Shown: piece by piece, positions 10,874 to 62,248 of the stretch
Position numbering within the stretch: the stretch's first letter is position 1
Layout: the number at the start of each line of letters is the position of its first letter
NCBI RefSeq assembly: GCF_014648275.1
Contig: NZ_BMQU01000018.1
Span: 50,881-114,880 of the forward strand
From: Pseudomonas laurentiana
GTDB lineage: Bacteria; Pseudomonadota; Gammaproteobacteria; Pseudomonadales; Pseudomonadaceae
Direction of reading: 5' to 3'
Length of the DNA stretch: 64,000 nt
Program-made: the position numbers and the translations under genes
The notes under the pieces: generated by a model
The model's input: only the letters and a program-made list of their open reading frames with translations
The model's database searches: none
Told to the model about the DNA's origin: nothing

Positions 10874-10891
10874 CATCGTCCGTTCAGACCA
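10874..10891 (-). promoter_or_regulatory. Steroid-regulon box (minus strand) for the MFS gene
   Basis: On the minus strand this reads TGGTCTGAACGGACGATG, identical to the box at 38283-38300. A -10-like GACGAT lies 21-26 nt downstream. The implied start of transcription near 10841 gives a 28-nt leader to the GTG at 10813. It pairs back-to-back with the box at 10942. Confidence 0.7.
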
Positions 10892-10896
10892 TTTTT

Positions 10897-10910
10897 CCCG
10901 TAGTTACGGG
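10897..10910. promoter_or_regulatory. Inverted repeat between the two divergent boxes
   Basis: CCCGTAGTTACGGG has perfect 6-bp arms around GT. It lies between the boxes at 10874 and 10942, where a further regulator or a DNA-bending protein could bind. No partner is known and it is not repeated at the other divergent promoters. Confidence 0.3.
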
Positions 10911-10941
10911 CATTTGGCTGCGATGTCCGGGCAGGCAAATC

Positions 10942-10959
10942 TAGTCTTGTCGGACGATG
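10942..10959 (+). promoter_or_regulatory. Steroid-regulon box for the OYE-FadD operon
   Basis: TAGTCTTGTCGGACGATG, with AATCAT as -10-like hexamer 21-26 nt downstream. The operon's first ATG is at 11076, giving a leader of about 84 nt. Confidence 0.7.
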
Positions 10960-11075
10960 TTTCAGTCTCGCTCAGGGTGAATCATTCAGCCCATATCCGG
11001 TTTTGCGCAATCCCTGGCCGCCTTTCGGTGAGCAGCCTGGCATCGCCGGAAACAATAAGACGTAAAGGAGCTGAC

Positions 11076-12161
11076 ATGAGCATCTTGTTCGAGCCGGTGT
11101 GCCTCGGTGAACTGCAGCTGGCCAATCGTATCGTCATGGCGCCGATGACCCGCAGTCGTGCCGATGCAGGTGCGGTACCAAGCGCTGACATGGTCGAGTA
11201 CTACCGCCAGCGCGCCAGCGCCGGGTTGATTGTTGCCGAGGGTACGGCGCCGTCGGCCAGTGGCCTTGGCTATTGCCGTACACCGGCGATCTACACCGGC
11301 GAACAGATTACCGCATGGCGCCAGGTGACCCGCGCCGTGCATGACGCAGGCGGTCGTATCGTACTGCAACTGATGCATGTGGGACGCGCTGCCAGCCATT
11401 ACAACAAACCCGGCGGTGCTGCCACTGTGGGCCCTTCGGCAGTACGCGCACGCACTCAAGTGTTCAGCGATGCCGTTGGCCTGGTCGATACCGACAGCCC
11501 GCAGGCGTTGACCCTGGAAGGCATCGCCGCTGTGATCGAGGATTACCGTCAGGCGGCGTTGAATGCACGTGAAGCCGGTTTCGATGGCGTCGAGTTGCAT
11601 TGCACCAGCGGTTACCTGCCGATGCAGTTCATGGCGGCGGGCAGCAACCAGCGTACCGATGCCTACGGCGGCTCGGCGAGCAACCGGGTGCGGTTTGCCA
11701 AGGAGGTGATCGAGGCCATGGCCGCAGCAATCGGCGCCGGCCGTGTGGGCTTTCGGATGTGCCCGGGCAACCCCTACAACGATATCGACGACCTCGACCC
11801 GGCAGGCACCGCTGCCGCTCTTTGTGCTGCCGTGGCACCGCTGGGCCTGGCGTACCTGCACATCATGCGTTCGCCTGTGGCGGGTCTCGATGCCTTTGCC
11901 CTGGCGCGTGAGCACAGTGCTCTTGGGCTGATCCTCAACGATGGCTTTGATGGCGCATCGGCCAGCGCCGCGCTGGAGGCGGGCGAGGGGGCAGCGGTGT
12001 CCTTCGGGCGACATTTCATTGCCAACCCCGACCTGGTCGAGCGTTTGAAGCGCGGCGTGCCATTGGCCGGGTTTGACCGCAAGACGCTCTACACCTCTGG
12101 CCCTCGTGGCTATACGGACTATCCCACCTATCAGGCCGATGTTCTGGAGGTGACGCCATGA
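11076..12161 (+). CDS. Old yellow enzyme-family NAD(P)H:flavin oxidoreductase
   Basis: A 361-aa FMN TIM barrel starting MSILFEPVCLGELQLANRIVMAPMTRSRAD, with an AAAGGAGCTGAC ribosome site. Other OYE landmarks are LMHVGRAAS, TDAYGGSASNRVRF and the late phosphate-binding VSFGRHFIANPDL. Residues near the substrate His read HCTSGYLPMQF. Typical OYEs have His-x-x-Asn or His-x-x-His here, so the second proton-binding residue is Ser. The family reduces activated C=C bonds, so a ring or side-chain enone of a steroid is plausible. First gene of the side-chain operon, it overlaps the next gene by 4 bp. Confidence 0.88.
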   Translation: MSILFEPVCLGELQLANRIVMAPMTRSRADAGAVPSADMVEYYRQRASAGLIVAEGTAPSASGLGYCRTPAIYTGEQITAWRQVTRAVHDAGGRIVLQLMHVGRAASHYNKPGGAATVGPSAVRARTQVFSDAVGLVDTDSPQALTLEGIAAVIEDYRQAALNAREAGFDGVELHCTSGYLPMQFMAAGSNQRTDAYGGSASNRVRFAKEVIEAMAAAIGAGRVGFRMCPGNPYNDIDDLDPAGTAAALCAAVAPLGLAYLHIMRSPVAGLDAFALAREHSALGLILNDGFDGASASAALEAGEGAAVSFGRHFIANPDLVERLKRGVPLAGFDRKTLYTSGPRGYTDYPTYQADVLEVTP

Positions 12162-15089: not shown

Positions 15090-15155
15090 GCGGCCGGACA
15101 GCGGCAATGTTCAACATTCCAGGCGGCCAACCGGTTGCCCTTGAGGAGAGTCAGT

Positions 15156-16823: not shown

Positions 16824-16900
16824 TCCCTGCTGTTTCGTATCGACCACTCAGGTTCGGGGCAGGTTGCCTGCCTCGGGCCTTAACCATCACCTGGAAATGT

Positions 16901-16919
16901 CCGAAGCCTGTCGCTTCGG
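16901..16919. promoter_or_regulatory. Hairpin just upstream of the thiolase ribosome site
   Basis: CCGAAGC at 16901-16907 and GCTTCGG at 16913-16919 make a perfect 7-bp stem with a 5-nt loop. It is followed at once by AGTGGAGGCACT and the ATG. With no T-tract it is unlikely to terminate. It may stabilise the mRNA segment or modulate translation between the DUF1302 and thiolase genes. Confidence 0.45.
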
Positions 16920-16931
16920 AGTGGAGGCACT

Positions 16932-18143: not shown

Positions 18144-18148
18144 GCACC

Positions 18149-19202: not shown

Positions 19203-19220
19203 TAAGCCATTTGGACGATG
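19203..19220 (+). promoter_or_regulatory. Steroid-regulon box for the first YCF48-RND module
   Basis: TAAGCCATTTGGACGATG with GAGTAT at 21-26 nt downstream. The left half is weaker than consensus. It shares TTTGGACGATG with the box ahead of the second module (55786). Confidence 0.65.
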
Positions 19221-19320: not shown

Positions 19321-19377
19321 ATGACCCCCGCTTTGCATGCGTGTCACGAACAGGAGCGACCTTCATGCGCTCAGTGA
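19321..19377 (+). CDS. Candidate 18-codon leader ORF overlapping the YCF48 start (copy 1)
   Basis: The ORF MTPALHACHEQERPSCAQ follows AAGAGGA at about 9 nt. Its stop (19375-19377) lies 10 nt past the ATG of the YCF48 gene. The second module has an ORF of exactly the same length, with the same 44-nt offset between the two ATGs. Both peptides begin MTP and share C8, P14 and C16-A17. Part of that identity is forced by the overlap with the YCF48 start. It may couple translation rather than make a functional peptide. Confidence 0.4.
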   Translation: MTPALHACHEQERPSCAQ

Positions 19378-20336
19378 TCGGATACCTGGTCTGCCTGGTT
19401 GTCGGGCTGACGATCGTGTTTACCTTTTCCCCCAAGACCGAGCCTGAGCAAGCCCGGTTATCGCTGCGTTCGGACCGGGTTCAAATCAACGGCTTGCTGA
19501 ACCTGGGTGAGCGTGTGGTGGCGGTGGGCGAGCGTGGCAGCATCCTGCTCAGTGACGACCAAGGCGTGAGTTGGCAGCAGGCCAGCGTCGATCGGCAGCG
19601 TGACGTCGCCCTGACCGCCTTGGTGGCGTTGGGTGAACAGCGACTGCTGGCGGTCGGGCATGACGGGTGGATCCTGCGTTCCGAAGACAGCGGCAGCCAC
19701 TGGCGGGAAATGCGCTATGACACTGAATTGGGCGAGCCACTGCTGGGCGTCTGGGCGGCCGGTGGCGAGAGCGTCCTGGCATTCGGCAGTTTCGGCAAGT
19801 TCTATCAGTCCGATGATGCCGGGCTGAGCTGGAGCAAGCTGTCGCTCGACGTCGACAGCGCGCACCTCAACAGCATGGACGGTGGCCCTGATGGTCGCCG
19901 GATGCTGGTTGGTGAGCAGGGGTTGGTGCTGCGTACCCGCGATGGTGGCAAGCACTGGCAGACCTTGCCGGCGTTCTACAGCGGCTCGCTGTTCGGCATC
20001 GTGCGCCTGAGCCCGGAACATTGGGTGACCTATGGCATGCGCGGCCATGTCTTCGTCAGCCATGACTTCGGTGATAGCTGGACACAGGTCAACGTGGGTA
20101 ACCAACTGCCGCTCTACGGGCATGTGCTGTTGCCCGACCATTCCGGCCTGGTGATTGTCGGTGCGGGCAGCTCGGTGGTCCGGTTGGATGCACGCGGCGC
20201 CTTGGTTGGCGTCAGTCGCTTGGCCGGGCTTGGCACCTTGACCTCGGCGACGATGGTCGGCTCGCGTCTGCTGGTCGGCGGTGAGCGCGGGTTACTCCAG
20301 GGTTCTGGTGGCAGCGTTGCCGCCCTAGGTAAATGA
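19365..20336 (+). CDS. YCF48-like beta-propeller protein, copy 1
   Basis: A 323-aa protein. The ATG at 19365 (MRSVIGYLVCLVVGLTIVF) has AGGAGCGACC upstream and aligns with the start of the second copy. One N-terminal membrane helix or signal anchor leads into a repeated bladed domain: repeated GERG/GxxGxILxSxDxGxxW units such as VAVGERGSILLSDDQGVSWQ and AVGHDGWILRSEDSGSHWRE. This is the BNR/YCF48 propeller fold, placed in the periplasm. It is always next to an RND protein here, so a scaffold or chaperone role in that complex is likely. The biochemical role is unknown. Confidence 0.82.
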   Translation: MRSVIGYLVCLVVGLTIVFTFSPKTEPEQARLSLRSDRVQINGLLNLGERVVAVGERGSILLSDDQGVSWQQASVDRQRDVALTALVALGEQRLLAVGHDGWILRSEDSGSHWREMRYDTELGEPLLGVWAAGGESVLAFGSFGKFYQSDDAGLSWSKLSLDVDSAHLNSMDGGPDGRRMLVGEQGLVLRTRDGGKHWQTLPAFYSGSLFGIVRLSPEHWVTYGMRGHVFVSHDFGDSWTQVNVGNQLPLYGHVLLPDHSGLVIVGAGSSVVRLDARGALVGVSRLAGLGTLTSATMVGSRLLVGGERGLLQGSGGSVAALGK

Positions 20337-20346
20337 GAGGCGGGCA

Positions 20347-22722
20347 ATGAAACAAGGTAAAAGCTGGGTGACGCATAGCGTCGAAGCAGTCGCGGACCGG
20401 CTGATGGCATGGCGCAAGGGATTGTTGGTGCTGTTTGTGCTGGTAACCGTGGGGCTTGGCTACAGTGCTACCCACACGCAACTGGACCCGGGCTTCAACA
20501 AGCAGATTCCGGTACGGCATGCGTACATGGTCAACTTCCTGAAGTTCAGCCAGTACTTCACCGGTGCCAACCGGTTCCTGGTCAGCGTGCACTGGAAAGG
20601 TGAGGGGGACATCTACAACCCGGTATTCCTCGACACCTTGCGCAAGGTCACCGACGACGTGTTCTTTATTTCCGGGGTCAGTCGCGCCAGCGTTACCTCG
20701 CTGTTCACCACCAACGTGCGCTACATCGAAATCACCGAGGAAGGCTTTTTCGGTGATGTGGTGGTACCGCCACGGTTCAGCGGCACCGAGGAGGACCTGG
20801 CACAGGTGCGCAGCAACGCCGCCGCGTCCGGGCAGATCGGTCGCCTGCTGGCCAATGACCTGAAATCGGCCATGGTGCGCGCCGACCTGCAAGATATCGA
20901 CCCGCAGACCGGCGAACCCGTCAAGTACGCTGAAGTTGCCCGCCGTCTTGAAGAAATTCGCCACAAGTACAGCAATGAGCAGGTCGAAATCAACATTGTC
21001 GGTTTTGCCAAGCTGGTCGGCGACGTGGTCGAGGGGTTGAACACGGTCATCGGCTTCTTTGTGATCGCCTTCGTGATTACCGGGCTGCTGCTCTGGCTCT
21101 ATTCGCGTTCCTTGCGCCTGACCGTGGTTGCGCTGGTGGTGGCCTTGTTGCCGGTGGTCTGGTTACTGGGTTTGTTGCCGCTATTGGGGCTTGGCATCGA
21201 TCCGATGTCGATCCTGGTGCCGTTCCTGATTTTCTCCATCGGTGTATCCCACGCGGTACAGATGACCAATGCCTGGAAGCAGGACGTGGTTGCCGGCAGC
21301 GACTCGTTGCGGGCCGCACATTCGGCGTTCTGCAAGATCTTCATTCCTGGCTCCCTGGCGCTGTTGATGAACGCTCTGGGTTTTGCGGTGATCATGTTGA
21401 TCGATATCCCGATCGTGCATGAACTGGGCGTGACCGCCTGTATTGGCGTAATGCTGATGATCATCACCAACAAATTGATGCTGCCGGTGATCATCTCCTA
21501 CCTGCGCCTGGAGCCTGGGTTGATTCGGCAGGCACAAACCCGTCAGACCGGCAGGCATCGCCTGTGGTGGCGGCTGTCCGCGCTGGCCGAGCCAGGACCG
21601 GCACTGAGCGTGTTCGCCATCAGCCTGTTGCTGCTGGTGGCCGGGGCCTACAAGGCACGTGATCTGGCGGTGGGCGATATCGGTGCCGGCGCACCGGAGC
21701 TCAGGGCCGACTCACGCTACAACCAGGACAACCGCAAGATTGTCGACAGCTACTCGATCGGCCTCGATGTCATGTCGGTATTTGTCGAGGTCAAGGGCAT
21801 CGAAGAAGGCTGCCTGTCACCGGAAGTGATGCGTGCGGTGGAAGCCTTCGATTTCCGCATGCGTGCCGTCAGCGGTGTGCAGTCGGTCCAGAGCGTGGCC
21901 GGCATGGGCAAGCGGGTCATTGCCGGCAACAACGAGGGTAATCCACGCTGGGCGGCGATTCCCGGTTCGGCGCGGGGGTTGAGCCAGGGCGCGCGGGCCT
22001 ACATGCCGGACGACGGGTTGGTCACCGACGGCTGTCAGCAAATGCAGATCCTGGTGTTCCTGGCCGACCACGAAGGCGCCACCGTGGCCCATGCCATCAA
22101 TGAAGCCAAGCGCATCATCGCCGAGGTCCGCACACCACAGGTCGAGTTCCTCCTGGCGGGTGGAAACGTGGGCGTGATGGCCGCCTCCAACGAAGCCGTG
22201 AAACGGGCAGAGATCATCATGTTGGCGGCGCTCTTTGGTTCGGTGGCGCTGTTCTGCTGGCTGACGTTCCTCTCGGTCCGCGCGGTACTGTGCATTCTCG
22301 TGCCGTTGGCCATTGTAGCGATCCTCTGCAACGCGCTGATGGCGATGCTCGGCATTGGCCTGAAAGTCGCGACCTTGCCGGTGATGGCGCTGGGAGTGGG
22401 AGTGGGGGTCGATTACGGCATTTACCTGTATGAACGTATCCAGCACGAAATGGCCAGTGGATCGAGCCTGCGCGAGGCGTTTTATGAGGCGATGTGCCAA
22501 CGAGGGACGGCAGCAGTGTTCACCGCCTTGACCATGTCGATTGGGGTGTGTACCTGGGCCTTTGCGCCACTGAAGTTTCAGGCAGACATGGGCGTGCTGT
22601 TGTCCTTCATGTTCCTGGTCAACGTATTGGGTGCGATATTCCTGCTACCGGCGCTGGCGGCCTGGTTCAACCGTGGGCGCCGGCTGGTCGCCACGGACAG
22701 TCCCCTGGCCCAGACCCAGTGA
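20347..22722 (+). CDS. RND/MMPL-family transporter, copy 1
   Basis: A 791-aa inner-membrane protein with the RND duplication. Helix 1 (about 28-48) is followed by a large periplasmic loop, five helices around residues 230-385 (LPLLGLGIDPMSILVPFLIF, GVSHAVQMTNAWK), a second loop and five more helices (VATLPVMALGVGVGVDYGIYLYERIQ). This is the MMPL/HpnN-like class, which moves lipids or hydrophobic compounds using the proton gradient and needs no MFP partner. It starts 10 bp after the YCF48 gene. The second copy at 56888 is highly similar throughout. Role in steroid movement is inferred. Confidence 0.87.
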   Translation: MKQGKSWVTHSVEAVADRLMAWRKGLLVLFVLVTVGLGYSATHTQLDPGFNKQIPVRHAYMVNFLKFSQYFTGANRFLVSVHWKGEGDIYNPVFLDTLRKVTDDVFFISGVSRASVTSLFTTNVRYIEITEEGFFGDVVVPPRFSGTEEDLAQVRSNAAASGQIGRLLANDLKSAMVRADLQDIDPQTGEPVKYAEVARRLEEIRHKYSNEQVEINIVGFAKLVGDVVEGLNTVIGFFVIAFVITGLLLWLYSRSLRLTVVALVVALLPVVWLLGLLPLLGLGIDPMSILVPFLIFSIGVSHAVQMTNAWKQDVVAGSDSLRAAHSAFCKIFIPGSLALLMNALGFAVIMLIDIPIVHELGVTACIGVMLMIITNKLMLPVIISYLRLEPGLIRQAQTRQTGRHRLWWRLSALAEPGPALSVFAISLLLLVAGAYKARDLAVGDIGAGAPELRADSRYNQDNRKIVDSYSIGLDVMSVFVEVKGIEEGCLSPEVMRAVEAFDFRMRAVSGVQSVQSVAGMGKRVIAGNNEGNPRWAAIPGSARGLSQGARAYMPDDGLVTDGCQQMQILVFLADHEGATVAHAINEAKRIIAEVRTPQVEFLLAGGNVGVMAASNEAVKRAEIIMLAALFGSVALFCWLTFLSVRAVLCILVPLAIVAILCNALMAMLGIGLKVATLPVMALGVGVGVDYGIYLYERIQHEMASGSSLREAFYEAMCQRGTAAVFTALTMSIGVCTWAFAPLKFQADMGVLLSFMFLVNVLGAIFLLPALAAWFNRGRRLVATDSPLAQTQ

Positions 22723-22770
22723 GCAGGCAAGAGGTCTTGTGGGCGCGGTGCTAGTAACTGAGCGGTGCCT

Positions 22771-23055
22771 GCATCGTTGGCAAGCCAACTCCCACGGGGG
22801 GCCGTGCAGAACACTGCTTTTTCTGTGGGAGCAGGCTTGCCTGCGATAGCGTCGGCGCGGTGCCAGTGAATGCGCGGTGCTTGCATCGTTGGCAAGCCAA
22901 CTCCCACGGGGGGCCGTGCAGAACACTGCTTTTTCTGTGGGAGCAGGCTTGCCTGCGATAGCGTCGGCGCGGTGCCAGTGAATGCGCGGTGCTTGCATCG
23001 TTGGCAAGCCAACTCCCACAGGGATCCGTGCAGAACACCGCTTTTTCTGTGGCAG
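22771..23055. repeat. Tandem array of 112-bp units carrying paired REP palindromes
   Basis: Units begin at 22771, 22883 and 22995 (GCATCGTTGGCAAGCCAACT each time), a constant 112-bp period; the third is incomplete. Within a unit, a GTTGGCAAGCCAACTCCCAC arm is followed about 30 bp later by GTGGGAGCAGGCTTGCCTGC. These inverted REP halves can form a long stem. Units 1 and 2 are nearly identical, so duplication is recent. Typical Pseudomonas REP arrays mark 3' ends of genes. Confidence 0.88.
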
Positions 23056-23117
23056 GGCTTGTTAGTGGGTGGTCGTAGACATTCAGTTACCAAAAATAAA
23101 ACCTCAACGCCTATTGT

Positions 23118-23131
23118 GGACTACGTAGTGG
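23118..23131. promoter_or_regulatory. Inverted half-sites of the regulon box ahead of LuxR copy 1
   Basis: GGACTACGTAGTGG contains GGACTA and TAGTGG facing each other across CG; GGACTA is the exact reverse complement of the TAGTCC half of the cluster box. It is 142 bp before the regulator's ATG. An autoregulatory site is possible, but the spacing differs from the other boxes. Confidence 0.3.
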
Positions 23132-23272
23132 GCAGAGAGACTGTGACGCCAGCCTTGTTGCAGGGCCGTTGCAAGCAGCGTGTGGTCAAAAAGGGGGCGT
23201 GCTGCCCTCAAGCCGAAATTATAAAAATAACAAGGGAAGGTCACTGTGCCTTACCCGAGCGCGGAGAAGACT

Positions 23273-24508
23273 ATGGTAAGTGCAGTCTTGACCCATGAGG
23301 TTCTGGCCAGCGTCGGCCTTGACCTGAGCGAATACGACCGCCTGGTCGGTGAAGTCTATGAAGGGGCCCTCGATCCGAAGTTGATGGCGCGAGCCCTCAA
23401 GAGCTTCCGCACACTCTACGATGCCAACTACGTCACACTGATCCTGCGAGTACCGGACCAACCGGACATGGGTGTGATGATCATCGCCGGCGACATCGAA
23501 GGTGCTGGCGACGTCAGCTACATGACCTACCCCCAGACCAATACCCCGTTTGCCAATCAACCGCTGGATTACGTGTTCACGGTCGACGACATCATGACGT
23601 CCTCGGAATGGGAGCACAGCGCCTACTTCAAGATGTTCTGTGGCCCGCAAGGGGTGTACCACGTGATGGGCGCCGATATTTCCACCCCGGACGGCGGCAA
23701 GTTGCGCTTTCGCATTACCCGTCCCAAGCACGCGCCCAACTTCTCGGCCAACGAACGGGCACTGTGCGGTGTGTTCCTCCCGCACCTGCGGCGGGCATTG
23801 CAGGTGCATAACTTGCTGGATCGCAGTGAGTCGTTGAGTGAACTCTACTCCCAGGCAATCAGTCGGCTGTCGGTGGCAACCCTGGTGCTGGATGAAAGCG
23901 GCAGTGTGCTGCGGGTCAACCCGGTCGCCCAGGATATTCTGGCCAACGCCGATGGGTTGAAGTTGGTCGGCGGGCGCCTTGAGGCAAGCTACCCCAGTGA
24001 CAATCGCGAGCTGCAACGGCTGATTCGCGCCGCATTTTCCCCGGATGCCCCCAAGAGCGCCGAGGCCATGTCTGTCACGCGACCGTCCGGGCTGGTCAAC
24101 CTCGGCCTTGTGGTTGAATCGATTCCCTCGCTGGACTGGGCAGACGAGAAGGGCAAGCCCGCCGCACTGGTGTATATCCGCGATGCCGCGAGCAAGTCGC
24201 TGGCCAGCGAAGTGGTGACCAAGCAGTTGTTCAACCTGACCAGGGCCGAGACCGCCCTGGCAATGGAGTTGGCCAACGGTTTGTCCCTGGAGGAAGCGGC
24301 CGAAGTGCTGAACATCCGACGCAACACCGCACGTGCCCATCTGCGTTCGATTTTCTCCAAGACCGGTGTGCGCCGGCAGACTGAGCTGGTGCGCATCATG
24401 CTCAACAGTGTCGTGGCGCTGGGCAAGCCCAAGGTCGCCCTCAAGGTGGTTGAAAAACTCAAGGTTCCACCGCCGAAACTGGCAGTAGCCGCCTGTCGTC
24501 AGGCTTGA
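23273..24508 (+). CDS. LuxR-type regulator with PAS-like domain (TesR/TeiR-like), copy 1
   Basis: A 411-aa protein. The ATG at 23273 (GGAG 7 nt upstream) aligns residue for residue with the start of copy 2; an in-frame GTG at 23246 also has a good RBS. The N-terminal about 200 residues are a putative ligand-sensing region. A PAS-like stretch (LVLDESGSVLRVNPVAQDIL) follows near 205-310, then a clear LuxR helix-turn-helix (LTRAETALAMELANGLSLEE, RRNTARAHLRSIFSKTGV) near 325-385. TesR/TeiR of Comamonas testosteroni, a LuxR-type activator of steroid genes, is the nearest known analogue. It probably binds the TAGTCC-N4-GGACGATG box. Confidence 0.85.
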   Translation: MVSAVLTHEVLASVGLDLSEYDRLVGEVYEGALDPKLMARALKSFRTLYDANYVTLILRVPDQPDMGVMIIAGDIEGAGDVSYMTYPQTNTPFANQPLDYVFTVDDIMTSSEWEHSAYFKMFCGPQGVYHVMGADISTPDGGKLRFRITRPKHAPNFSANERALCGVFLPHLRRALQVHNLLDRSESLSELYSQAISRLSVATLVLDESGSVLRVNPVAQDILANADGLKLVGGRLEASYPSDNRELQRLIRAAFSPDAPKSAEAMSVTRPSGLVNLGLVVESIPSLDWADEKGKPAALVYIRDAASKSLASEVVTKQLFNLTRAETALAMELANGLSLEEAAEVLNIRRNTARAHLRSIFSKTGVRRQTELVRIMLNSVVALGKPKVALKVVEKLKVPPPKLAVAACRQA

Positions 24509-24570: not shown

Positions 24571-24588
24571 TAGTCCGCACAGACGATG
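24571..24588 (+). promoter_or_regulatory. Steroid-regulon box for the 3-alpha-HSD operon
   Basis: TAGTCCGCACAGACGATG. GATACT lies 22-27 nt downstream, at the same place and with the same sequence as at 60642. The leader to the ATG at 24642 would be about 21 nt. Confidence 0.75.
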
Positions 24589-30072: not shown

Positions 30073-30090
30073 CATCGTCTCAATGGACTA
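30073..30090 (-). promoter_or_regulatory. Steroid-regulon box (minus strand) for the SDR-hsaEGF operon
   Basis: On the minus strand TAGTCCATTGAGACGATG, with GATATT 21-26 nt downstream. The implied leader is about 46 nt to the ATG at 29994. Back-to-back with 30128. Confidence 0.75.
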
Positions 30091-30127: not shown

Positions 30128-30145
30128 TAGTCCGCTTTGACGATG
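30128..30145 (+). promoter_or_regulatory. Steroid-regulon box for the hsaA operon
   Basis: TAGTCCGCTTTGACGATG with GATGAT 21-26 nt downstream. The implied leader is about 38 nt. Confidence 0.75.
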
Positions 30146-34152: not shown

Positions 34153-34170
34153 GTAACCAAACGGACGATG
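34153..34170 (+). promoter_or_regulatory. Steroid-regulon box (weak left half) for DUF1302 copy 2
   Basis: GTAACCAAACGGACGATG keeps the right half and the central CC but not TAGT. CAGACT lies 21-26 nt downstream, with a leader of about 33 nt. Confidence 0.6.
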
Positions 34171-38282: not shown

Positions 38283-38300
38283 CATCGTCCGTTCAGACCA
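38283..38300 (-). promoter_or_regulatory. Steroid-regulon box (minus strand) for hsaD
   Basis: On the minus strand TGGTCTGAACGGACGATG, identical to the MFS box. CAGGAT lies 21-26 nt downstream. The leader (about 95 nt) is the longest among the boxes. Confidence 0.68.
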
Positions 38301-38318: not shown

Positions 38319-38336
38319 TAGTCCTATCGGACGATG
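38319..38336 (+). promoter_or_regulatory. Steroid-regulon box for the SDR-SDR-NTF2 operon
   Basis: TAGTCCTATCGGACGATG, a perfect GTCC-N4-GGAC dyad. AATCAT lies 21-26 nt downstream, as at 10942. It is only 18 bp from the divergent hsaD box. Confidence 0.78.
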
Positions 38337-42054: not shown

Positions 42055-43223
42055 GGTTGTTCTCCAAATAGATGTGCGGCTAGACGCTCGCGGTGGAATG
42101 CGGGAGTCCCCAGCAATTGCTCGCTGGCGCGGGCCCGTTTGAAGTACAGGTGAGGGTCATACTCCCAGGTGAAACCTACGCCTCCGTGCAGTTGGATGGA
42201 TTCGGCGGCGCAGTGGAAGAACGCTTCGCTGGCGTGGATCTTGGCCGTCGCGGCGGCTGCGTCGAGCTCGCTTGAGACAACGTTGTCGCCCGCGGGGTCA
42301 AGGCGCTCTTGGGCTACACAGGCGGCGTAGTAGGCGGCTGAACGGGCGCATTCGACCTGCAGCATCATGTCCGCGCAGCGGTGTTTGATGGCCTGGAAGC
42401 TGGCGATGCTGCGGCTGAACTGGTGGCGCTCGGCGGTGTAGGCCAGGGTCAGGTCGAGGGCCTGTTGCGCGCCGCCGGTCTGTTCGGCAGCCAGGCCTAT
42501 GGCGGCGATCTGCAAGGTATCACGCAGCAGCGGCCAGCCTTGGCCGGCTGCGCTCAGCAGTTGTGCGTCGGTCACCTGCACCGCGTGCAGTTCGATCCGG
42601 GCCAGGCGCCGGGTTTGATCCAGGGTCGGCAGTGCGTGGCGCACAACCCCCGGTGTATCGGCCGGCAGGGCGAACAGGCTGATGCCGTGTTCTCCCTGAG
42701 TACCAGGGGTACGCGCGGCGACGATCAGCAGGTCGGCCTGGGCTCCATCGACCACGTGGGTGTAGGTGCCCGTGAGGCTGAAGCCGCCGCTGCAGGAGTG
42801 GGCTTCGGTGTGCACGCTGCTGGCGTCCAGCCCCGGGCCGCTGGCGAAAGCCAGGCTGGCGGTGGTTTCGCCGGCCGCAATGGCGCCGAGCCAGGTGACC
42901 TGCAATGCGGCGTTGTCACCCAACAGCAGGGCTGGGGTCGCGAGGCAAGTAGTGGCGAAGAGGGGCGAGCAGAGCAGGTAGCGGCCGCTTTGCTCAAGCA
43001 GGATCGCCAGCTCGACAAACCCCAGGCCCATGCCGCCAAACGGCTCGGGCACCATTAATGCGGGCCAATACAGGTCTTGGCCGATGCGTTTCCAAACCGC
43101 GGGGTCGTAGCCCTCAGGGCGGCTCATGGCCGCGCGTACGGCATGCGAGTCACTGGCTTGTGTCAGAAAGCGTATCGCGCTGTCCCGAATCATCACGTGT
43201 TCTTGAGTAAAGGCGAACTCCAT
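42051..43223 (-). CDS. Acyl-CoA dehydrogenase, divergent partner subunit
   Basis: A 390-aa ACAD starting MEFAFTQEHVMIRDSAIRFL. It keeps helical parts (VPEPFGGMGLGFVELAILLEQSG, QFSRSIASFQAIKHRCADMM) and the C-terminal QLHGGVGFTWEYDPHLYFKRA, but lacks the EIQRN-type FAD motif of its partner. This is the usual pattern for one half of heteromeric steroid ACADs. It is the first gene of a two-gene operon with the overlapping gene at 40861. Confidence 0.86.
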   Translation of the reverse strand: MEFAFTQEHVMIRDSAIRFLTQASDSHAVRAAMSRPEGYDPAVWKRIGQDLYWPALMVPEPFGGMGLGFVELAILLEQSGRYLLCSPLFATTCLATPALLLGDNAALQVTWLGAIAAGETTASLAFASGPGLDASSVHTEAHSCSGGFSLTGTYTHVVDGAQADLLIVAARTPGTQGEHGISLFALPADTPGVVRHALPTLDQTRRLARIELHAVQVTDAQLLSAAGQGWPLLRDTLQIAAIGLAAEQTGGAQQALDLTLAYTAERHQFSRSIASFQAIKHRCADMMLQVECARSAAYYAACVAQERLDPAGDNVVSSELDAAAATAKIHASEAFFHCAAESIQLHGGVGFTWEYDPHLYFKRARASEQLLGTPAFHRERLAAHLFGEQP

Positions 43224-43282: not shown

Positions 43283-43300
43283 AATCATTGAAACGGACTA
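43283..43300 (-). promoter_or_regulatory. Degenerate regulon box (minus strand) for the ACAD pair
   Basis: On the minus strand TAGTCCGTTTCAATGATT: perfect left half, right half only 4 of 8. TAGACT lies 22-27 nt downstream, with a 27-nt leader to the ATG at 43223. Orientation and spacing match the others. Confidence 0.5.
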
Positions 43301-43341: not shown

Positions 43342-43359
43342 TAGTCTCAACGGACGATG
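43342..43359 (+). promoter_or_regulatory. Steroid-regulon box for the hsaC-ipd operon
   Basis: TAGTCTCAACGGACGATG. The -10 candidate CAATGT is at 23-28 nt downstream, slightly further than usual. Leader about 34 nt to the ATG at 43426. Confidence 0.7.
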
Positions 43360-53193: not shown

Positions 53194-53211
53194 TACCCCG
53201 TTTTGACGATG
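53194..53211 (+). promoter_or_regulatory. Steroid-regulon box for the ipdF operon
   Basis: TACCCCGTTTTGACGATG, with TTATAC 20-25 nt downstream. Leader about 28 nt to the GTG at 53272. Confidence 0.65.
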
Positions 53212-55785: not shown

Positions 55786-55803
55786 TAGGCCGTTTGGACG
55801 ATG
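55786..55803 (+). promoter_or_regulatory. Steroid-regulon box for the second YCF48-RND-LuxR module
   Basis: TAGGCCGTTTGGACGATG, with GATGAT 21-26 nt downstream. It is closest to the box of the first module. Confidence 0.7.
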
Positions 55804-55860
55804 TAGCACGGGCGGGGCGGTCTGATGATCCTTCAAACAAAATCAAGAGGATCGCCCCCC

Positions 55861-55917
55861 ATGACGCCTGTCTCGTGCCCCTGTGTTTCGCCATGGAGTC
55901 CAGTATGCGCCAGCTGA
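55861..55917 (+). CDS. Candidate 18-codon leader ORF overlapping the YCF48 start (copy 2)
   Basis: MTPVSCPCVSPWSPVCAS, with AAGAGGA about 9 nt upstream. Its ATG is 44 nt ahead of the YCF48 ATG and its stop lies 10 nt past it, exactly as in copy 1. The peptide body differs, so conservation may be of coupling rather than of sequence. Confidence 0.4.
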   Translation: MTPVSCPCVSPWSPVCAS

Positions 55918-56879
55918 TTGGATACGCCATGAGCGCCATCATCATCGCTGCGGTGGCCTTTGCCTTCTCGCCGCGTAACCCTACACCGCTGGCGATCACC
56001 CGGATCAATGCTGACCGTGTCCAGGTCAACGCCTTGCTGGCCAATGGCTCGCAACTGGTCGCGGTCGGTGAGCGCGGCACTATTTTGACCAGCACGGACA
56101 GTGGCCTGTCCTGGCAAACCAGCCAGGTGGCGGCCGAGCGTGAGGCGACGCTTACCGGCGTCATTGCCTTGAGCCCCGAGGTGCTGGTCGCGGTTGGCCA
56201 TGATGGGTGGATCCTGCGTTCAAGCGACCGTGGTCAGAGCTGGCAGGAGGTGCACTACGACGCGCAGCTGGGTGAGCCGTTGCTTGGCGTGTGGAGCGGT
56301 GACGGCAAGCAGGTGGTCGCCTATGGCAGCTATGGCAAGTACCTTGAGTCGAGTGATGCCGGCGAACACTGGACAGCCCGTGAGATGCCCGGCGAAGGCG
56401 CCCATTTCAATGGCCTGGACGGCGGCCCTGATGGCCGGCAGATGCTGGTTGGCGAGCAGGGCCTGGTGCTGCGCTCCAGCAATGGCGGGCACGATTGGCA
56501 GAGCCTGACGCCGTTCTACAACGGCTCGCTGTTTGGCGTGGTGCGCTTGTCGGCCTCTCGCTGGCTGGCGTATGGCATGCGCGGGCATGTCTTTATCAGT
56601 ACGGATTTCGGTGACAGCTGGAGCCAGGTCGATGTTGGCAGTAGCCAGCCGATTTACGGTCATGCGGTGTTGCCCCAGCACGCTGGCCTGGTGCTGGTTG
56701 GTGCCGGTAGCCGGCTGATTCGCCTCGATGCCAACGGTGCGTTGGTCGACAGCGCTCAACGCGCGGGCTTGGGCACCTTGACCTCTGCGGTAGTACTCAA
56801 TGCCCGCCGCCTGTTGGTGGCCGGGGAACGTGGGGTATTTCAGGGCGCAGACGGTGGTCTTGCCGCCGTCGCACAGTGA
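55905..56879 (+). CDS. YCF48-like beta-propeller protein, copy 2
   Basis: A 324-aa protein. The ATG at 55905 (MRQLIGYAMSAIIIAAVAFAF) has GGAGTCCAGT upstream and matches the start of copy 1. The same propeller repeats occur, for example AVGHDGWILRSSDRGQSWQE and the GGPDGRQMLVGEQGLVLRSS block. Copies differ mostly in the N-terminal anchor and surface loops. It begins the second transport module and ends 8 bp before the RND start. Confidence 0.82.
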   Translation: MRQLIGYAMSAIIIAAVAFAFSPRNPTPLAITRINADRVQVNALLANGSQLVAVGERGTILTSTDSGLSWQTSQVAAEREATLTGVIALSPEVLVAVGHDGWILRSSDRGQSWQEVHYDAQLGEPLLGVWSGDGKQVVAYGSYGKYLESSDAGEHWTAREMPGEGAHFNGLDGGPDGRQMLVGEQGLVLRSSNGGHDWQSLTPFYNGSLFGVVRLSASRWLAYGMRGHVFISTDFGDSWSQVDVGSSQPIYGHAVLPQHAGLVLVGAGSRLIRLDANGALVDSAQRAGLGTLTSAVVLNARRLLVAGERGVFQGADGGLAAVAQ

Positions 56880-56887
56880 GTAGGCAT

Positions 56888-59299
56888 ATGACACAGACTA
56901 CAGGTTGGATCGAACGCCGCGTGCAGGACTGCGCGGACTTACTGCTGAACAATCGGCGCTGGTGGCTGGGGCTGTTCATGCTGGTGACGGTGGCCTTGGG
57001 CTACAGCGCAACCCAGGTACGACTCGACCCGGGGTTCAACAAGCAGATCCCCGTGCGCCACGAGTACATGTTGAGCTTTCTGGACTTCAGTCGGGTGTTC
57101 ACGGGCGCCAATCGGTTGCTGGTGAACGTACACTGGAAGGGTGAGGGCGACATCTATAACCCGGAGTTTCTCCGGGTGCTGCAGCAGGTTACCGATGACG
57201 TGTTCTTCATCTCCGGGGTCAGCCGCCCGAGCGTGACCTCGCTGTTCACCCCGAACGTGCGCTACGTCGAGATCACCGAAGAGGGGTATGTCGGTGACCT
57301 GGTGGTGCCACCGCAATACGCCGGTACCGATGAGGACCTGCAGAAAGTCCGCAGTAATGCCGCCCGCGCCGGGCAGGTGGGCCGGTTGCTGGCCAACGAT
57401 CAGCGTTCGGCCATGGTCCGCGCCGACTTGCAGGACACCGACCCGAAAACCGGCCAGCCGGTGTCCTATGTCGAGATCGCCAAGCGGCTTGAGGAGATCC
57501 GGGCCAAGTACAACAGCCCGACCATCGAGATCAACGTGGTGGGGTTCGCCAAGCTGGTGGGGGATGTGGTCGAAGGGCTTAACACCGTCATGCTGTTCTT
57601 TGTCGTGGCGTTCGTCATTACCGCGTTGCTGCTTTGGGCCTACTCGCGCTCGTTGCCGTTGACGGTCGTGGCCTTGGTCGTGGCGTTGTTGCCGGTGGTC
57701 TGGCTGCTCGGGTTGCTGCCGCTGTTGGGGCTGGGCATCGATCCGATGTCCGTGCTGGTGCCGTTCCTGATCTTCTCCATTGGCGTATCCCATGCGGTAC
57801 AGATGACCAACGCCTGGAAGCAGGATGTGCTGGCTGGCAGCACCTCGTTGCAGGCGGCGCGTTCGGCCTTCTGCAAGATCTTCATTCCAGGGTCCCTGGC
57901 ACTGTTGATGAATGCCCTGGGTTTTGCGGTGATCATGCTGATCGACATCCCGATCGTGCATGAACTGGGTGTGACCGCCTGTATGGGGGTGATGCTGATG
58001 ATCATCACCAACAAGATGATGCTGCCGCTGATCATTTCCCATTTGCCCCTGGGATTGTCCGCGCGTGTGGCACGACCGACACATGAAGCCGCTCGCCACC
58101 CGTTGTGGTGGCGGTTGTCGGCATTGGCTGAGCCGCGTCCGGCCCTCGTGGTGTTCGCCATCAGCCTGGTGCTGCTCGGTTTCGGCGTGTTCAAGGCACG
58201 GGAACTGGCGGTCGGCGACATTGGCCCGGGCGCGCCGGAGCTGCGCGCCGACTCGCGTTACAACCAGGACAACCAGCGCATTATCGACAGTTATTCGATT
58301 GGCCTGGATGTGCTGGCGGTCTTTCTTCAGACCCAGGGTATCGACGAGGCGTGCCTGAACCCGGGTGTCATGCGCGCCGTCGAGGCTTTTGACTTCCAGA
58401 TGCGCAATGTCGCTGGCGTGCAATCGGTGCAGAGCGTGGCCGGCATGGGCAAGGAAATGATTGCCGGGAACAACGAAGGAAACCCGCGCTGGTCGGCAAT
58501 CCCTGGCTCTTCGCGCGGTTTGCAGCAGGGGTCGATGGCCTATTCGCCGGATTCCGGTCTGGTCACCGATGGCTGCAAGCGGATGCAGATCCTGGTGTTC
58601 CTCAACGATCATGAGGGCGCGACGGTGTTCCATGTGGTCAACGAAGCCAAGCGGATTATTGCCGGGATCCGGGCGCCTGGGGTTGAGTTCAAGCTGGCCG
58701 GCGGCAACATCGGCGTCATGGCGGCGTCCAACGAAGCGGTAAAACGTGCCGAGGTGTGGATGCTCGCGGCGTTGTTCTGCTCGGTGGCGTTTTTCTGCCT
58801 GCTGACGTTTCGCTCGTTGCGCGCAGTGCTCTGTATTCTGGTGCCGATGGGCATCGTTGCGATTCTCTGCAACGCGCTGATGGCCATGCTCGGCATCGGC
58901 TTGAAAGTCGCGACATTGCCCGTGATGGCGCTGGGTGTCGGGGTCGGCGTGGACTATGGCATTTACCTGTATGAGCGCATCCAGCATGAAATGGCGGCGG
59001 GCCAGGACTTGCGTCATGCGTTCTATCGCGCCATGTGCCAGCGCGGCACGGCAGCGGTGTTCACCGCCCTGACCATGTCGATCGGGGTCGGTACCTGGGC
59101 GTTTGCCCCCCTGAAACTGCAGGCTGACATGGGTATCCTGCTGGCGTTCATGTTCCTGGTGAATGTCTTTGGCGCTATCTTCTTGTTGCCGGCGCTTGCG
59201 GCCTGGTTCAATCGTGGCCGGCCATTGGTTGCTGTGAAAGCAGCGTCACCTGGCACTGACGCGTCACTACCGTTCTCCGGTGTGCTCGCAGGTCGTTAA
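56888..59299 (+). CDS. RND/MMPL-family transporter, copy 2
   Basis: An 803-aa membrane protein, homologous end-to-end to copy 1. LDPGFNKQIPVRH, FTGANRLLVNVHWKGEGDIY, SFCKIFIPGSLALLMNALGF-type blocks and VMALGVGVGVDYGIYLYERI are shared almost word for word. Divergence concentrates in the middle loop (around 380-410) and at the C-terminus, where copy 2 has about 12 extra residues. The ATG at 56888 follows GAGTAGGC. Substrate is inferred to be steroid-like. Confidence 0.87.
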   Translation: MTQTTGWIERRVQDCADLLLNNRRWWLGLFMLVTVALGYSATQVRLDPGFNKQIPVRHEYMLSFLDFSRVFTGANRLLVNVHWKGEGDIYNPEFLRVLQQVTDDVFFISGVSRPSVTSLFTPNVRYVEITEEGYVGDLVVPPQYAGTDEDLQKVRSNAARAGQVGRLLANDQRSAMVRADLQDTDPKTGQPVSYVEIAKRLEEIRAKYNSPTIEINVVGFAKLVGDVVEGLNTVMLFFVVAFVITALLLWAYSRSLPLTVVALVVALLPVVWLLGLLPLLGLGIDPMSVLVPFLIFSIGVSHAVQMTNAWKQDVLAGSTSLQAARSAFCKIFIPGSLALLMNALGFAVIMLIDIPIVHELGVTACMGVMLMIITNKMMLPLIISHLPLGLSARVARPTHEAARHPLWWRLSALAEPRPALVVFAISLVLLGFGVFKARELAVGDIGPGAPELRADSRYNQDNQRIIDSYSIGLDVLAVFLQTQGIDEACLNPGVMRAVEAFDFQMRNVAGVQSVQSVAGMGKEMIAGNNEGNPRWSAIPGSSRGLQQGSMAYSPDSGLVTDGCKRMQILVFLNDHEGATVFHVVNEAKRIIAGIRAPGVEFKLAGGNIGVMAASNEAVKRAEVWMLAALFCSVAFFCLLTFRSLRAVLCILVPMGIVAILCNALMAMLGIGLKVATLPVMALGVGVGVDYGIYLYERIQHEMAAGQDLRHAFYRAMCQRGTAAVFTALTMSIGVGTWAFAPLKLQADMGILLAFMFLVNVFGAIFLLPALAAWFNRGRPLVAVKAASPGTDASLPFSGVLAGR

Positions 59300-59330
59300 G
59301 CGCGGCTAACCCATCACAATAAAAAATCTT

Positions 59331-59366
59331 GCAGGCCCCGGTGGTTCAGACCACTGCAGGGCCTGC
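59331..59366. terminator. Strong two-tier hairpin between RND copy 2 and LuxR copy 2
   Basis: GCAGGCCC (59331-59338) pairs with GGGCCTGC (59359-59366), and inside it GTGGT (59341-59345) pairs with ACCAC (59350-59354) around TCAG. It is preceded by AAAAAATC and followed by TCTTGGGGAG, the RBS region of the regulator. It may attenuate read-through into the regulator. On the minus strand it looks like a terminator with a T-run, but no gene reads into it. Confidence 0.6.
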
Positions 59367-59381
59367 TCTTGGGGAGTGTCT

Positions 59382-60590
59382 ATGCAAACCAGCGTGCCCA
59401 ATACCCAGGTCCTGGCGGACATGGGACTCGAGTTGGCCGAGTACGAAAAAATCATTGGCAATATGTACGATTCGGCCCTGGATACGCGCTACATGAGCGA
59501 ATCGCTGCAGCAGATTCGTGCGCTGTTCCAGGCCAATTTCGTCACGCTGATCCTGCGGGTAATGGATGAGCCGTTCCTGTCACCGATGATGGTCGCCGGG
59601 GATGTCGAACTGGGCGAGGGTGGGATCAACCATTACGCGTACTACGCCAAGTCCACGCTGTTCAACAACCTGCCGACGGATCAGGTGTTCACCATCGAAG
59701 ACTTGATGACCGATGCCGAGTGGGTCAGTTCATCCTTCTACCTGCTGTTTTGCGAGCCCTATGACTGCTACCAGATGCTGGGTGCCGACATCAGCATGCC
59801 CGATGGCGGTACCTTGCGTTTTCGCATCAGTCGACCCAAGGATCACCCGCGGTTTTCGGCCGCCGAACGGGCGATGTGCGCAATGTTGCTGCCGCACTTG
59901 CGCCGTGCCTTGCACATGCACTCGTTGCTGGACCGCAGCGAGTCGCTGGGTAGCCTGTACTCGCAGACCATCAGCCGTTTGTCGGTGGCCACGATTGTGC
60001 TCGATGAAAGCGGCAGCGTACTGCAATTGAACCCGGTCGCACGGGAGATCCTCGACAGTAATGACGGCCTGAAGGTGGTCGGTGGCCGACTGGAGGCCAC
60101 CTACCCGAGCGATAATCGAGAGCTGTCGCGGTTGGTACGCAATGCGTTCCTGCGGGCCAAGCAGGGCAGTGATACGTTGCAAGGGGCCGAGGCGATGTCG
60201 ATCTCCCGACCATCCGGACAGGTCAGCCTGGGCGTCGTGGTGGAGCTGATCCCGTCACAGGAGCTGGTCGAGGGCAAGGGCAAACCCACTGTTGTGGTGT
60301 ATGTGCGCGATGCCGTGAGCAAATCGCTGGTCAGTAATGTGGTGACCTCGCAACTCTACAACCTCACGCCTGCCGAGACCGCGCTGGCCCTGGAACTGGC
60401 CAACGGCCTGTCGCTGGAGGAGGCCTCCGAGACCCTGAACATCCGCCGCAACACGGCACGGGCGCACCTGCGCTCGATCTTCTCCAAGACCGGCGTGCGG
60501 CGCCAGACCGAGCTGGTGCGGATCATGCTCAACAGTGTTGTCGCATTGGGCAAACCGGGTGCGTTGCCCGTGCCGGCAATCGTTGGTTAG
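59382..60590 (+). CDS. LuxR-type regulator with PAS-like domain (TesR/TeiR-like), copy 2
   Basis: A 402-aa protein starting MQTSVPNTQVLADMGLELAE, with GGGGAG before the ATG. It aligns along its whole length with copy 1. Shared blocks include SLYSQTISRLSVATIVLDES, the PAS-like core, and an almost identical helix-turn-helix (LTPAETALALELANGLSLEE, RRNTARAHLRSIFSKTGVRR). The matching recognition helices imply that both regulators read the same box. Differences in the N-terminal 200 residues suggest different ligands. Confidence 0.85.
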   Translation: MQTSVPNTQVLADMGLELAEYEKIIGNMYDSALDTRYMSESLQQIRALFQANFVTLILRVMDEPFLSPMMVAGDVELGEGGINHYAYYAKSTLFNNLPTDQVFTIEDLMTDAEWVSSSFYLLFCEPYDCYQMLGADISMPDGGTLRFRISRPKDHPRFSAAERAMCAMLLPHLRRALHMHSLLDRSESLGSLYSQTISRLSVATIVLDESGSVLQLNPVAREILDSNDGLKVVGGRLEATYPSDNRELSRLVRNAFLRAKQGSDTLQGAEAMSISRPSGQVSLGVVVELIPSQELVEGKGKPTVVVYVRDAVSKSLVSNVVTSQLYNLTPAETALALELANGLSLEEASETLNIRRNTARAHLRSIFSKTGVRRQTELVRIMLNSVVALGKPGALPVPAIVG

Positions 60591-60641
60591 CGTGTTGCCG
60601 TCACGACTGGGGAGGCTGCGCGTGACGGCGTAAAAATGCGT

Positions 60642-60659
60642 TAGTCCGAGCGGACGATG
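60642..60659 (+). promoter_or_regulatory. Steroid-regulon box for the DUF1329 gene
   Basis: TAGTCCGAGCGGACGATG, a perfect AGTCCG-AG-CGGAC-type dyad. GATACT lies 22-27 nt downstream, leader about 30 nt to the ATG at 60722. Best match to the consensus. Confidence 0.8.
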
Positions 60660-60721
60660 CTTCTCGCTCCATTGGCTGTCGATACTGGGGGACCGCTATC
60701 GGTAATCAAGGAGAATAAGAA

Positions 60722-62134
60722 ATGACCGGCAGTAATCTGGCCTCTCGTTGTTCTGTTTCGCGCACTGCCAATGCCACGCAGACGTGGACGTTAGCGCTGT
60801 TGCTGGGGTGCAGTGTGATTGGCACGGCCAGTGCGGCGCCGGAAGATCTGGCGCGCCTGGGCAAGGACTTGACCTGTTTGGGGGCTGACAAGAGCGGTAA
60901 CGCCGACGGCAGCATCCCGCCGTTCAGCGGCAAGTGGCTGGGGGTTCCACCGCATGTGGACTTCAAGGGCACCGGCAACCACCCGGTTGACCCTTACCCG
61001 GACGAAAAGCCCCTGTTCGTGATCACCGCAGCCAACCTGGCGCAATACAGTGACTACTTGTCCGATGGGCAGAAAGCCCTGTTCAAGCTCTATCCCGCCA
61101 CCTTCAACATGCCGGTGTACCCGTCGCACAGGGACTTCCGCGTCCCTGACTCGGTGTGCCAGGCGACCCGTGAAAACGCCAGCGTTGCTCGCCTGGTCGA
61201 TGACGGGGAGGGTGTGGTTGGCAAAACCGGTGGTACGCCGTTCCCGGTCCCCCGCAGCGGCCTGGAGCTGCTGAAGAATGCCTCGACCTTCACCTTGCGT
61301 GCCTGGACCGAGGAATACACCTCTGACAACGCCTATGTGCTCAAGGACGGCAACATCAACTGGGGCCGCGTGCATTCGCGCAACCTGGCACCGGCACTGG
61401 AGCCGGGCAAGATCGGCGATACCGTGGGCAACTCTTCGTTCTACCTGAACGAGACGCTGCTGCCGCAGCGTGACAAGGGCGAGGTCAACACCGGTACCGA
61501 GTTCTGGAACGACAAGACCGAGCCCCGCCAGAGCTGGCGCTACGACCCGGGCACCCGCCGCGTGCGGCAGTCGCCAGGGTATGGCTTCGACATGTCGTTC
61601 CCAGGCAGTGGTGGCTCGATCACCGTCGACGAGGTGCGCCTGTTCAACGGTTCAGGGCAGCGCTATGACTGGAAGATCGTCGGCAAGCGCGAGATGTTCA
61701 TTCCGTACAACGCCTACCGACTGCACGCTGCCAACTTGAAATACGCTGACCTGCTTACCCCAGGCCACATCAACCCGCAGGCCATGCGCTATGAGCGCCA
61801 CCGCGTATGGGAGCTGGAAGGCACCCTCAAGCCGGGTTACCGCCACCTGTATGGCAAGCGCAAGTTGTACATCGATGAAGACACCTGGTTCCCGATGCTC
61901 GCAGACAACTACGACAACCGTGGCGAGCTGTGGCGTACCTCGATGGTCAACTACTTCTATGCCTACGAAAGTCAGGCACAGCAAGCGGGTGTGGGGCTTT
62001 ACCACGACCTCAACGCGGGCAGCTACCTGGCGTTCAACCTGATCAACGAGCAGCGCAACGGCTATCAACTGAACAAGCCGGGCTTCAGCCCGCGCGATTT
62101 TGGCCCTGAAGCCGCACGTCGTTTCGGTCAGTAA
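60722..62134 (+). CDS. DUF1329 exported protein
   Basis: A 470-aa protein with AAGGAGAATAAGA before the ATG and a signal peptide ending at GTASAAPEDLA. The DUF1329 hallmarks are visible: WRYDPGTRRVRQSPGYGFDM, YDWKIVGKREMFIPYNAYRL, RHRVWELEGTLKPGYRHLYG and the end SPRDFGPEAARRFGQ. The fold is thought to resemble LolA/LolB-type lipid carriers. It usually keeps company with DUF1302, as here. A periplasmic carrier between the DUF1302 barrel and the RND pump is a reasonable model. Confidence 0.85.
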   Translation: MTGSNLASRCSVSRTANATQTWTLALLLGCSVIGTASAAPEDLARLGKDLTCLGADKSGNADGSIPPFSGKWLGVPPHVDFKGTGNHPVDPYPDEKPLFVITAANLAQYSDYLSDGQKALFKLYPATFNMPVYPSHRDFRVPDSVCQATRENASVARLVDDGEGVVGKTGGTPFPVPRSGLELLKNASTFTLRAWTEEYTSDNAYVLKDGNINWGRVHSRNLAPALEPGKIGDTVGNSSFYLNETLLPQRDKGEVNTGTEFWNDKTEPRQSWRYDPGTRRVRQSPGYGFDMSFPGSGGSITVDEVRLFNGSGQRYDWKIVGKREMFIPYNAYRLHAANLKYADLLTPGHINPQAMRYERHRVWELEGTLKPGYRHLYGKRKLYIDEDTWFPMLADNYDNRGELWRTSMVNYFYAYESQAQQAGVGLYHDLNAGSYLAFNLINEQRNGYQLNKPGFSPRDFGPEAARRFGQ

Positions 62135-62230
62135 TGCGGGGGCGAGGCGCCGTTGAGGCGCTTCGCCTGCGGTGTGGTTGCAGGGGCGAACCCATCAAGG
62201 GCGCGCATCGAGAATAGATCTCGCTTGATC

Positions 62231-62248
62231 TAGTCCAATTGGAGGATG
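62231..62248 (+). promoter_or_regulatory. Steroid-regulon box for kshA
   Basis: TAGTCCAATTGGAGGATG. AATGAT lies 22-27 nt downstream, leader about 68 nt. The right half has GGAGGATG instead of GGACGATG. Confidence 0.7.

Follow-up and report, generated by a model that had tools for sequence, protein, structure and literature searches.

A directional box ahead of steroid-degradation genes of Pseudomonas laurentiana: a probable operator of TeiR/TesR-type LuxR regulators

The steroid gene cluster and its boxes

The 64-kb stretch of Pseudomonas laurentiana DNA analysed here (the window; positions 50881-114880 of contig C18) contains a cluster in which hsaA-, hsaC- and kshA-like steroid-degradation genes lie together with two LuxR-type regulator genes, luxR-A and luxR-B. 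An 18-bp directional box, TAGTCC-N4-GGACGATG, recurs ahead of its transcription units, the latter being deduced from gene order. The original prediction listed 15 such boxes, and direct reading found every one of them at its coordinates and on its strand. The box belongs to a real, conserved operator-promoter module, which is most likely served by a regulator of the TeiR/TesR type. The names hsaA- and hsaC-like rest on best NCBIfam matches below the curated cut-offs (373 and 277 bits of 450), the hsaD- to hsaG-like names on Pfam families and gene company, and kshA on Pfam KshA_C.

The leftmost box (10874..10891, minus strand; two mismatches to the consensus; -10-like hexamer GACGAT; box centre at -41.5) stands ahead of an MFS transporter gene (9476-10876, minus), and the next (10942..10959, plus; one mismatch; AATCAT) ahead of an Oxidored_FMN gene for a flavin mononucleotide oxidoreductase (open reading frame (ORF) 10800-12161, plus). 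The box at 19203..19220 (plus; two mismatches; GAGTAT) precedes a YCF48-MMPL-luxR-A set, where autoregulation would be possible, and that at 24571..24588 (plus; one mismatch; GATACT, shifted by +1) precedes SDR1-SDR2 (ATG at 24642). SDR3 and the hsaE-, hsaG- and hsaF-like genes follow the box at 30073..30090 (minus; one mismatch; GATATT), and the hsaA-like gene (30216-31406, plus) that at 30128..30145 (plus; one mismatch; GATGAT). A weak site (34153..34170, plus; four mismatches; CAGACT at the usual position) lies ahead of a DUF1302 gene (34236, plus). An HsaD-like alpha/beta hydrolase gene (37322-38155, minus) is preceded by the box at 38283..38300 (minus; two mismatches; CAGGAT), and SDR4-SDR5-SnoaL by a perfect one at 38319..38336 (plus; AATCAT). 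The second weak site (43283..43300, minus; four mismatches; TAGACT, shifted by +1) stands before acyl-CoA dehydrogenase genes (42051-43223, minus), while the hsaC-like gene (43411, plus) follows the box at 43342..43359 (plus; one mismatch; CACAAT). The remaining four, all on the plus strand, precede SDR7-MaoC-thiolase (53194..53211; three mismatches; -10-like TATACC), the YCF48-MMPL-luxR-B set, again with possible autoregulation (55786..55803; one mismatch; at 26.2 bits the best match in the genome to the sequence model described below), a DUF1329 gene at 60722, plus (60642..60659; no mismatch; GATACT, shifted by +1), and kshA at 62271-63389, plus (62231..62248; one mismatch; AATGAT, shifted by +1). 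Window position 64000 is also the end of contig C18 (114,880 bases), about 600 bases past kshA, so the regulon may extend beyond the assembly gap and past what was described as the last catabolic promoter.

Two sites match the consensus perfectly, seven have one mismatch, three have two, one (53194) has three and two (34153 and 43283) have four; 12 of the 15 thus lie within two mismatches. The total of 15 stands, with two weak sites instead of the single degenerate copy first described, and both of these keep a -10-like hexamer at most 1 nt from its usual position. The strand of the box equals that of the next gene at every site, in line with the claim that it points to the gene. At up to three mismatches the window holds 22 matches, against a mean of 4.39 (standard deviation 1.90, maximum 9) in 100 shuffles. 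Thirteen are listed sites; the other nine each carry three mismatches and equal the maximum attained in shuffles. Positions 1-9400, said to be free of boxes, are so except for a single three-mismatch match at 9045, within the ORF of a TonB receptor.

Promoter geometry and direction

The geometry was examined in 251 box matches from the P. laurentiana loci and from foreign loci, of which 219 end in GATG and 122 remain after sites at least 65% alike are dropped. Across these 122 non-redundant sites the flanks are nearly unconserved, while the box and a -10 element are retained. Clear conservation beyond the box is confined to positions 39-44, with A40 in 91 and T44 in 84 sites; positions of this zone played no part in site selection. 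The A40-T44 pair occurs at the exact offset in 75 of the 122 and within 1 nt in 104, as compared to a mean of 8.3 and a maximum of 15 at other offsets, and it is found on the far side of 9 of 109 asymmetric sites. An A is also enriched at position 52 (55/122). No conserved -35 hexamer was found in the 122 aligned sites. In the window, a -10-like hexamer lies no more than 1 nt away from the usual offset at 14 of the 15 sites, 53194 carrying TATACC, and among 14 sites from outside Pseudomonas the element is exactly placed in eight and within 1 nt in 11. If transcription starts 7 nt past the hexamer, every one of the 15 boxes in the window has its centre at -41.5 or -42.5. A dyad centred near -42 relative to these putative starts, in place of a -35 element, is the arrangement of a class II site, and the direction of the box would fit a class II promoter with its -10-like element 20 nt beyond GATG.

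The original prediction described a dyad core, GTCC-N4-GGAC, with directional flanks. Dyad and direction both hold; the dyad is better written TCGTCC-N4-GGACGA, and near-symmetric versions exist. Among 32 non-redundant near-symmetric sites, some of which are likely chance matches, a -10-like element is found on both sides in eight, on one side in 18 and on neither in six. The two-sided kind includes a site between divergent genes of the same genome (contig C15, 72783), and Shewanella and Vibrio sites between enoyl-CoA hydratase and SDR genes.

A further observation, made by eye and uncounted, concerns boxes ending in GGACGAGG or GGACGAAG (symmetric sites at loci L071, L073, L035, L070, L111, L112 and L114), which often have a TAGNNT-like -10 element with its first T. 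That T is present in 11 of the 122 GATG sites, and the TG may make up for a weak -10 element in GATG promoters.

Genome-wide distribution and a second steroid locus

In the whole 5.2-Mb genome the bare pattern gives 15 matches at up to one mismatch: nine in the window, four in the 49-83 kb region of contig C15 and two elsewhere. The latter two (C19:29217 and C16:97743, one mismatch each) lie within long mechanically called ORFs and were taken as chance. At up to two mismatches there are 63 matches against 96 for the reversed control, which limits the specificity of the bare pattern to near-exact matches. A sequence model of 46 positions, covering box and -10 element, was trained on 68 foreign sites, with the P. 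laurentiana sites (window, L034 and L035), Pseudomonas defluvii sites, two-mismatch sites and the sites of L110 and L092 excluded, and was used to score 150 first-look candidates per genome, or 2372 for P. laurentiana. Its 14 best genome-wide matches all fall within the window and C15:49-83 kb, bearing out the enrichment that had been expected. At 14.6 bits or above there are 17 matches, 11 in the window, five on C15 and one elsewhere (rank 15, within an ORF).

The C15 region is a second steroid locus of the same genome. It supplies the outside copies that had been predicted, with boxes ahead of a kstD-like gene (587 of 788 bits), of an hsaB-related flavin reductase gene (63 bits, the cut-off being 230; 133 of 340 in a related family) and of an aldehyde dehydrogenase gene, which is followed by a chemotaxis receptor gene. 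Two side-chain units that diverge from each other, a SnoaL-like gene and another DUF1329 gene also have C15 boxes ahead of them.

Two side observations concern this locus. The region (C15:49000-83000; L034, L035) also holds side-chain genes and a steroid-24-oyl-CoA synthetase-like gene. The receptor gene, of the methyl-accepting type, sits between the aldehyde dehydrogenase gene and kstD, a place that suggests steroid chemotaxis under the same control.

Conservation in other genomes

The regulon reaches beyond this cluster and this genus. Among 199 Pseudomonas genomes, the exact box is present in all 27 that carry a LuxR relative and in 14 of the 172 that do not (Fisher p 2e-23); 99 of the 114 exact matches fall in the 27 regulator-bearing genomes, the reversed pattern giving eight. 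The model yields 5-13 matches at E <=0.05 in each of eight regulator-bearing genomes and one match in total in ten without the regulator; these genomes are distinct from those used in training, with near relatives of training sites possible. A separate, earlier scoring was partly circular, as it included G042, G046, G132 and G193, all sources of training sites. One genome, G131, has an exact box with no regulator match and no window-type genes near it, which was taken as chance.

At two mismatches, 61 regulator loci hold 174 matches, while the reversed pattern yields 21. The boxes also stand ahead of the same genes. In 70 Pseudomonas/Stutzerimonas loci (two of them titled Paucimonas), a box at up to three mismatches precedes 154 of 190 homologues of those window genes that come first in their unit (reversed control 6/190) and 25 of 165 operon-internal ones (control 8/165), with kshA (37/37), hsaC (5/5) and YCF48 (31/31) always preceded. 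In 11 loci of other genera, boxes precede 10 of 22 first genes (control 0/22) and two of 21 internal genes (control 1/21). This gene-by-gene survey skipped homologues below 35% identity, late starts and short upstream sequences. Boxes ahead of an hsaA-, hsaC- or kshA-like gene are found in Shewanella, Vibrio, Caballeronia, Cupriavidus and genome G422.

Genome G422, of the same class as the Pseudomonas window, is a putative Comamonas relative. Its gene runs resemble the published 120-kb mega-cluster of C. testosteroni (PMC13101464), where tesR stands at the end of the steA-tesR cluster. A LuxR relative (46-47% identical) occupies a tesR-like position in G422, following a thiolase/MaoC/SDR/acyl-CoA dehydrogenase run. 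Boxes lie ahead of its hsaA-like, thiolase/ChsH2, YCF48, DUF1329, side-chain, aldehyde dehydrogenase/MFS, hsaC-like and SDR4 (SDR4-SDR5-SnoaL) genes and of a second luxR; at one mismatch to TNGTCY-N4-GGACGATG there are 34 matches (control 15). No recognised steroid gene was found near the exact box at 2925855.

On a plasmid of Sphingobium TomTYG64, TAGTCTCTTCGGACGAAG lies immediately upstream of kshA (L119:14611), in a cluster with a 36% identical LuxR relative. With TomTYG64, the operator may possibly extend to alphaproteobacteria.

The candidate regulators

LuxR-A (P0001; 23246..24508, plus) is a predicted GAF-PAS-LuxR regulator on the basis of Pfam GerE, an AlphaFold model and a fold search, and LuxR-B (P0002; 59376..60590, plus) is its paralogue. 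The two are 63% identical overall and 91% identical in their helix-turn-helix (HTH) tails, and the HTH tails are also similar in the box-bearing genera. LuxR-A is 98% identical to a P. defluvii counterpart. Both proteins match Pfam GerE and thus possess a C-terminal HTH of the LuxR type. In the VIA-align rows coverage falls mainly on residues 1-195 (GAF-like), whereas the PAS domain is assigned from model secondary structure and Foldseek, and the HTH has Pfam support as well; the model is of moderate confidence, with a mean predicted local distance difference test score of 69.7, and a PDB sequence search gave no match. The highest 19-residue Kyte-Doolittle mean is 1.28 in both proteins, which indicates no obvious membrane helix. 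GerE proteins are the sole transcription-factor families among 59 window ORF queries; no TetR match was found among these, regulators of C15 not being surveyed. LuxR-A and LuxR-B, whose relatives accompany the box in the genus, are the best candidates to bind it.

Several observations touch these genes. The two paralogous YCF48-like/MMPL-RND/luxR sets (19341-24508 and 55794-60590) each stand behind a box with luxR last, and one of their MMPL proteins matches the Pfam sterol-sensing domain (26.7 bits, cut-off 22.3). The sensor parts of LuxR-A and LuxR-B have diverged, while the HTH tails have stayed nearly alike. A further LuxR relative, 34-35% identical, occurs in two Pseudomonas genomes (L111:8961-10115 and L112:8369-9466); its recognition region is altered and symmetric TCGTCC-N4-GGACGA sites lie nearby.

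Proposed mechanism and alternative explanations

Taken together, the site positions, the fixed -10 spacing, the confinement of the best genome matches to steroid loci, the co-occurrence with the regulator and the conservation ahead of the same genes argue strongly that the box serves as operator for two cluster-encoded activators of the TeiR/TesR type, the predicted GAF-PAS-LuxR products of luxR-A and luxR-B. Direct binding, activation, start sites, ligand and autoregulation would then follow this scheme. A steroid or catabolite would presumably first be bound by the GAF or PAS domain. A LuxR dimer would bind the dyad TCGTCC-N4-GGACGA, whose upstream half would be relaxed to TAGTCC at one-way promoters, GGACGATG being the promoter-side half. 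Centred at about -42, the box would replace the -35 element, with a -10 hexamer, NANNAT, 20 nt after it, and the activator would recruit RNA polymerase in the class II mode. Transport, side-chain and ring-degradation genes would be switched on, and the luxR genes might activate themselves via the boxes ahead of both YCF48-MMPL-luxR sets.

Some results weigh against this assignment. The co-occurrence counts come from related genomes and therefore overstate independence, and they would also fit another regulator travelling with the clusters. Class-wide, a LuxR relative is present in three of 369 genomes, P. laurentiana included; the exact box occurs in two of these three, yet also in six of the 366 others. 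At up to three mismatches, 9/28 SDR1, 14/31 SDR7 and 3/5 DUF1302 homologues of the Pseudomonas set are boxless, and SDR7 homologues there have no box at up to two; 12 of 22 first genes in other genera also lack one. Sphingobium TomTYG64 has weak boxes only, and TomTYG46 none at up to two mismatches. The model, direct search included, fails on four of the 15 window sites (10874, 19203, 34153 and 43283). Finally, direct binding alone leaves the reports of TeiR as a polar membrane kinase (PMC6678751) unexplained.

The best surviving alternative, an unlikely one, is that another regulator, perhaps a TetR- or LysR-type protein whose gene lies elsewhere, uses the box as its operator and represses or activates the steroid genes through it. 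In actinobacteria, steroid regulons are under the TetR repressors KstR and KstR2, and C. testosteroni is reported to have additional regulators (PMC8399759 and PMC6678751); the co-occurrence with luxR could be hitch-hiking. However, no such family was met in the window queries mentioned above, the box covers the -35 position and no hexamer is conserved there, as suits an activator, boxes accompany luxR throughout the 27 Pseudomonas genomes, and the loci compared differ in cluster layout. That the box is part of an alternative sigma factor promoter, and no operator at all, would explain its direction and its rigid spacing to the -10-like element, but it is very improbable and was rejected: the dyad core also exists in near-symmetric versions, eight of 32 being flanked left and right by -10-like elements, the -10 looks like that of sigma-70 promoters, and the presence of the box tracks luxR. 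A chance or repeat (mobile or structural element) origin, for which the four mismatches of 34153 and 43283 and the excess of reversed matches to the bare pattern would speak, is barely credible and was dismissed in view of the unconserved flanks around a kept box and -10 in 122 sites, the 174 matches against 21 in regulator loci, the fixed -10 offset, the top model matches in steroid loci and their tracking of the regulator.

A broader proposal is somewhat favoured, namely that in gamma- and betaproteobacteria at large, Comamonas-type mega-clusters included, steroid catabolism is controlled through a single conserved operator that cytoplasmic GAF-PAS-LuxR steroid receptors recognise. If true, TeiR/TesR would act directly, as a ligand-gated class II activator, instead of heading a kinase cascade at the membrane, and all such genomes could be scanned with the box for steroid genes not yet recognised. 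In P. laurentiana the operator ties the scattered C15 locus to the regulon and can help to locate steroid genes that are still missing. With the operator sequence defined and its geometry predicted, the control of steroid degradation, so far poorly understood, can be probed by simple binding and reporter assays, and a boxed promoter is a candidate steroid biosensor.

Comparison with known systems

Class II sites of the LuxR family, such as the lux box, are inverted repeats of 16-20 bp near -42 that overlap the -35 position. The present dyad is likewise centred near -42 over that position, whereas its sequence differs and one operator occurs in asymmetric one-way and near-symmetric forms. PAS-LuxR regulators such as PimM also use a conserved dyad operator and combine PAS with a LuxR HTH; the proteins described here differ by a predicted extra GAF domain, catabolic target genes and another operator sequence. 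The steroid regulons of actinobacteria resemble this one in that one operator type spans the regulon, but KstR and KstR2 are TetR repressors, none of which was found among the window ORFs queried.

The closest known counterparts are TeiR/TesR of Comamonas testosteroni, LuxR-type positive steroid regulators, and here too a LuxR HTH gene lies within the steroid cluster. TeiR is reported in reviews as a polar membrane kinase (PMC6678751), whereas GAF, PAS and HTH domains are predicted here, and this Pseudomonas has two paralogues. In P. stutzeri Chol1, deletion of one of two TeiR-like genes is reported to delay cholate degradation and growth (unpublished data cited in PMC8399759). No TeiR/TesR operator or similar box was found in the accessible text of PMC8399759, PMC6678751, PMC13101464, PMC12239570, PMC6895838, PMC12502768, PMC4810484 and PMC8700777, a search that any operator given in the original TeiR paper would have escaped. 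The kind of system is thus familiar, while its operator, geometry and reach appear new within the literature searched.

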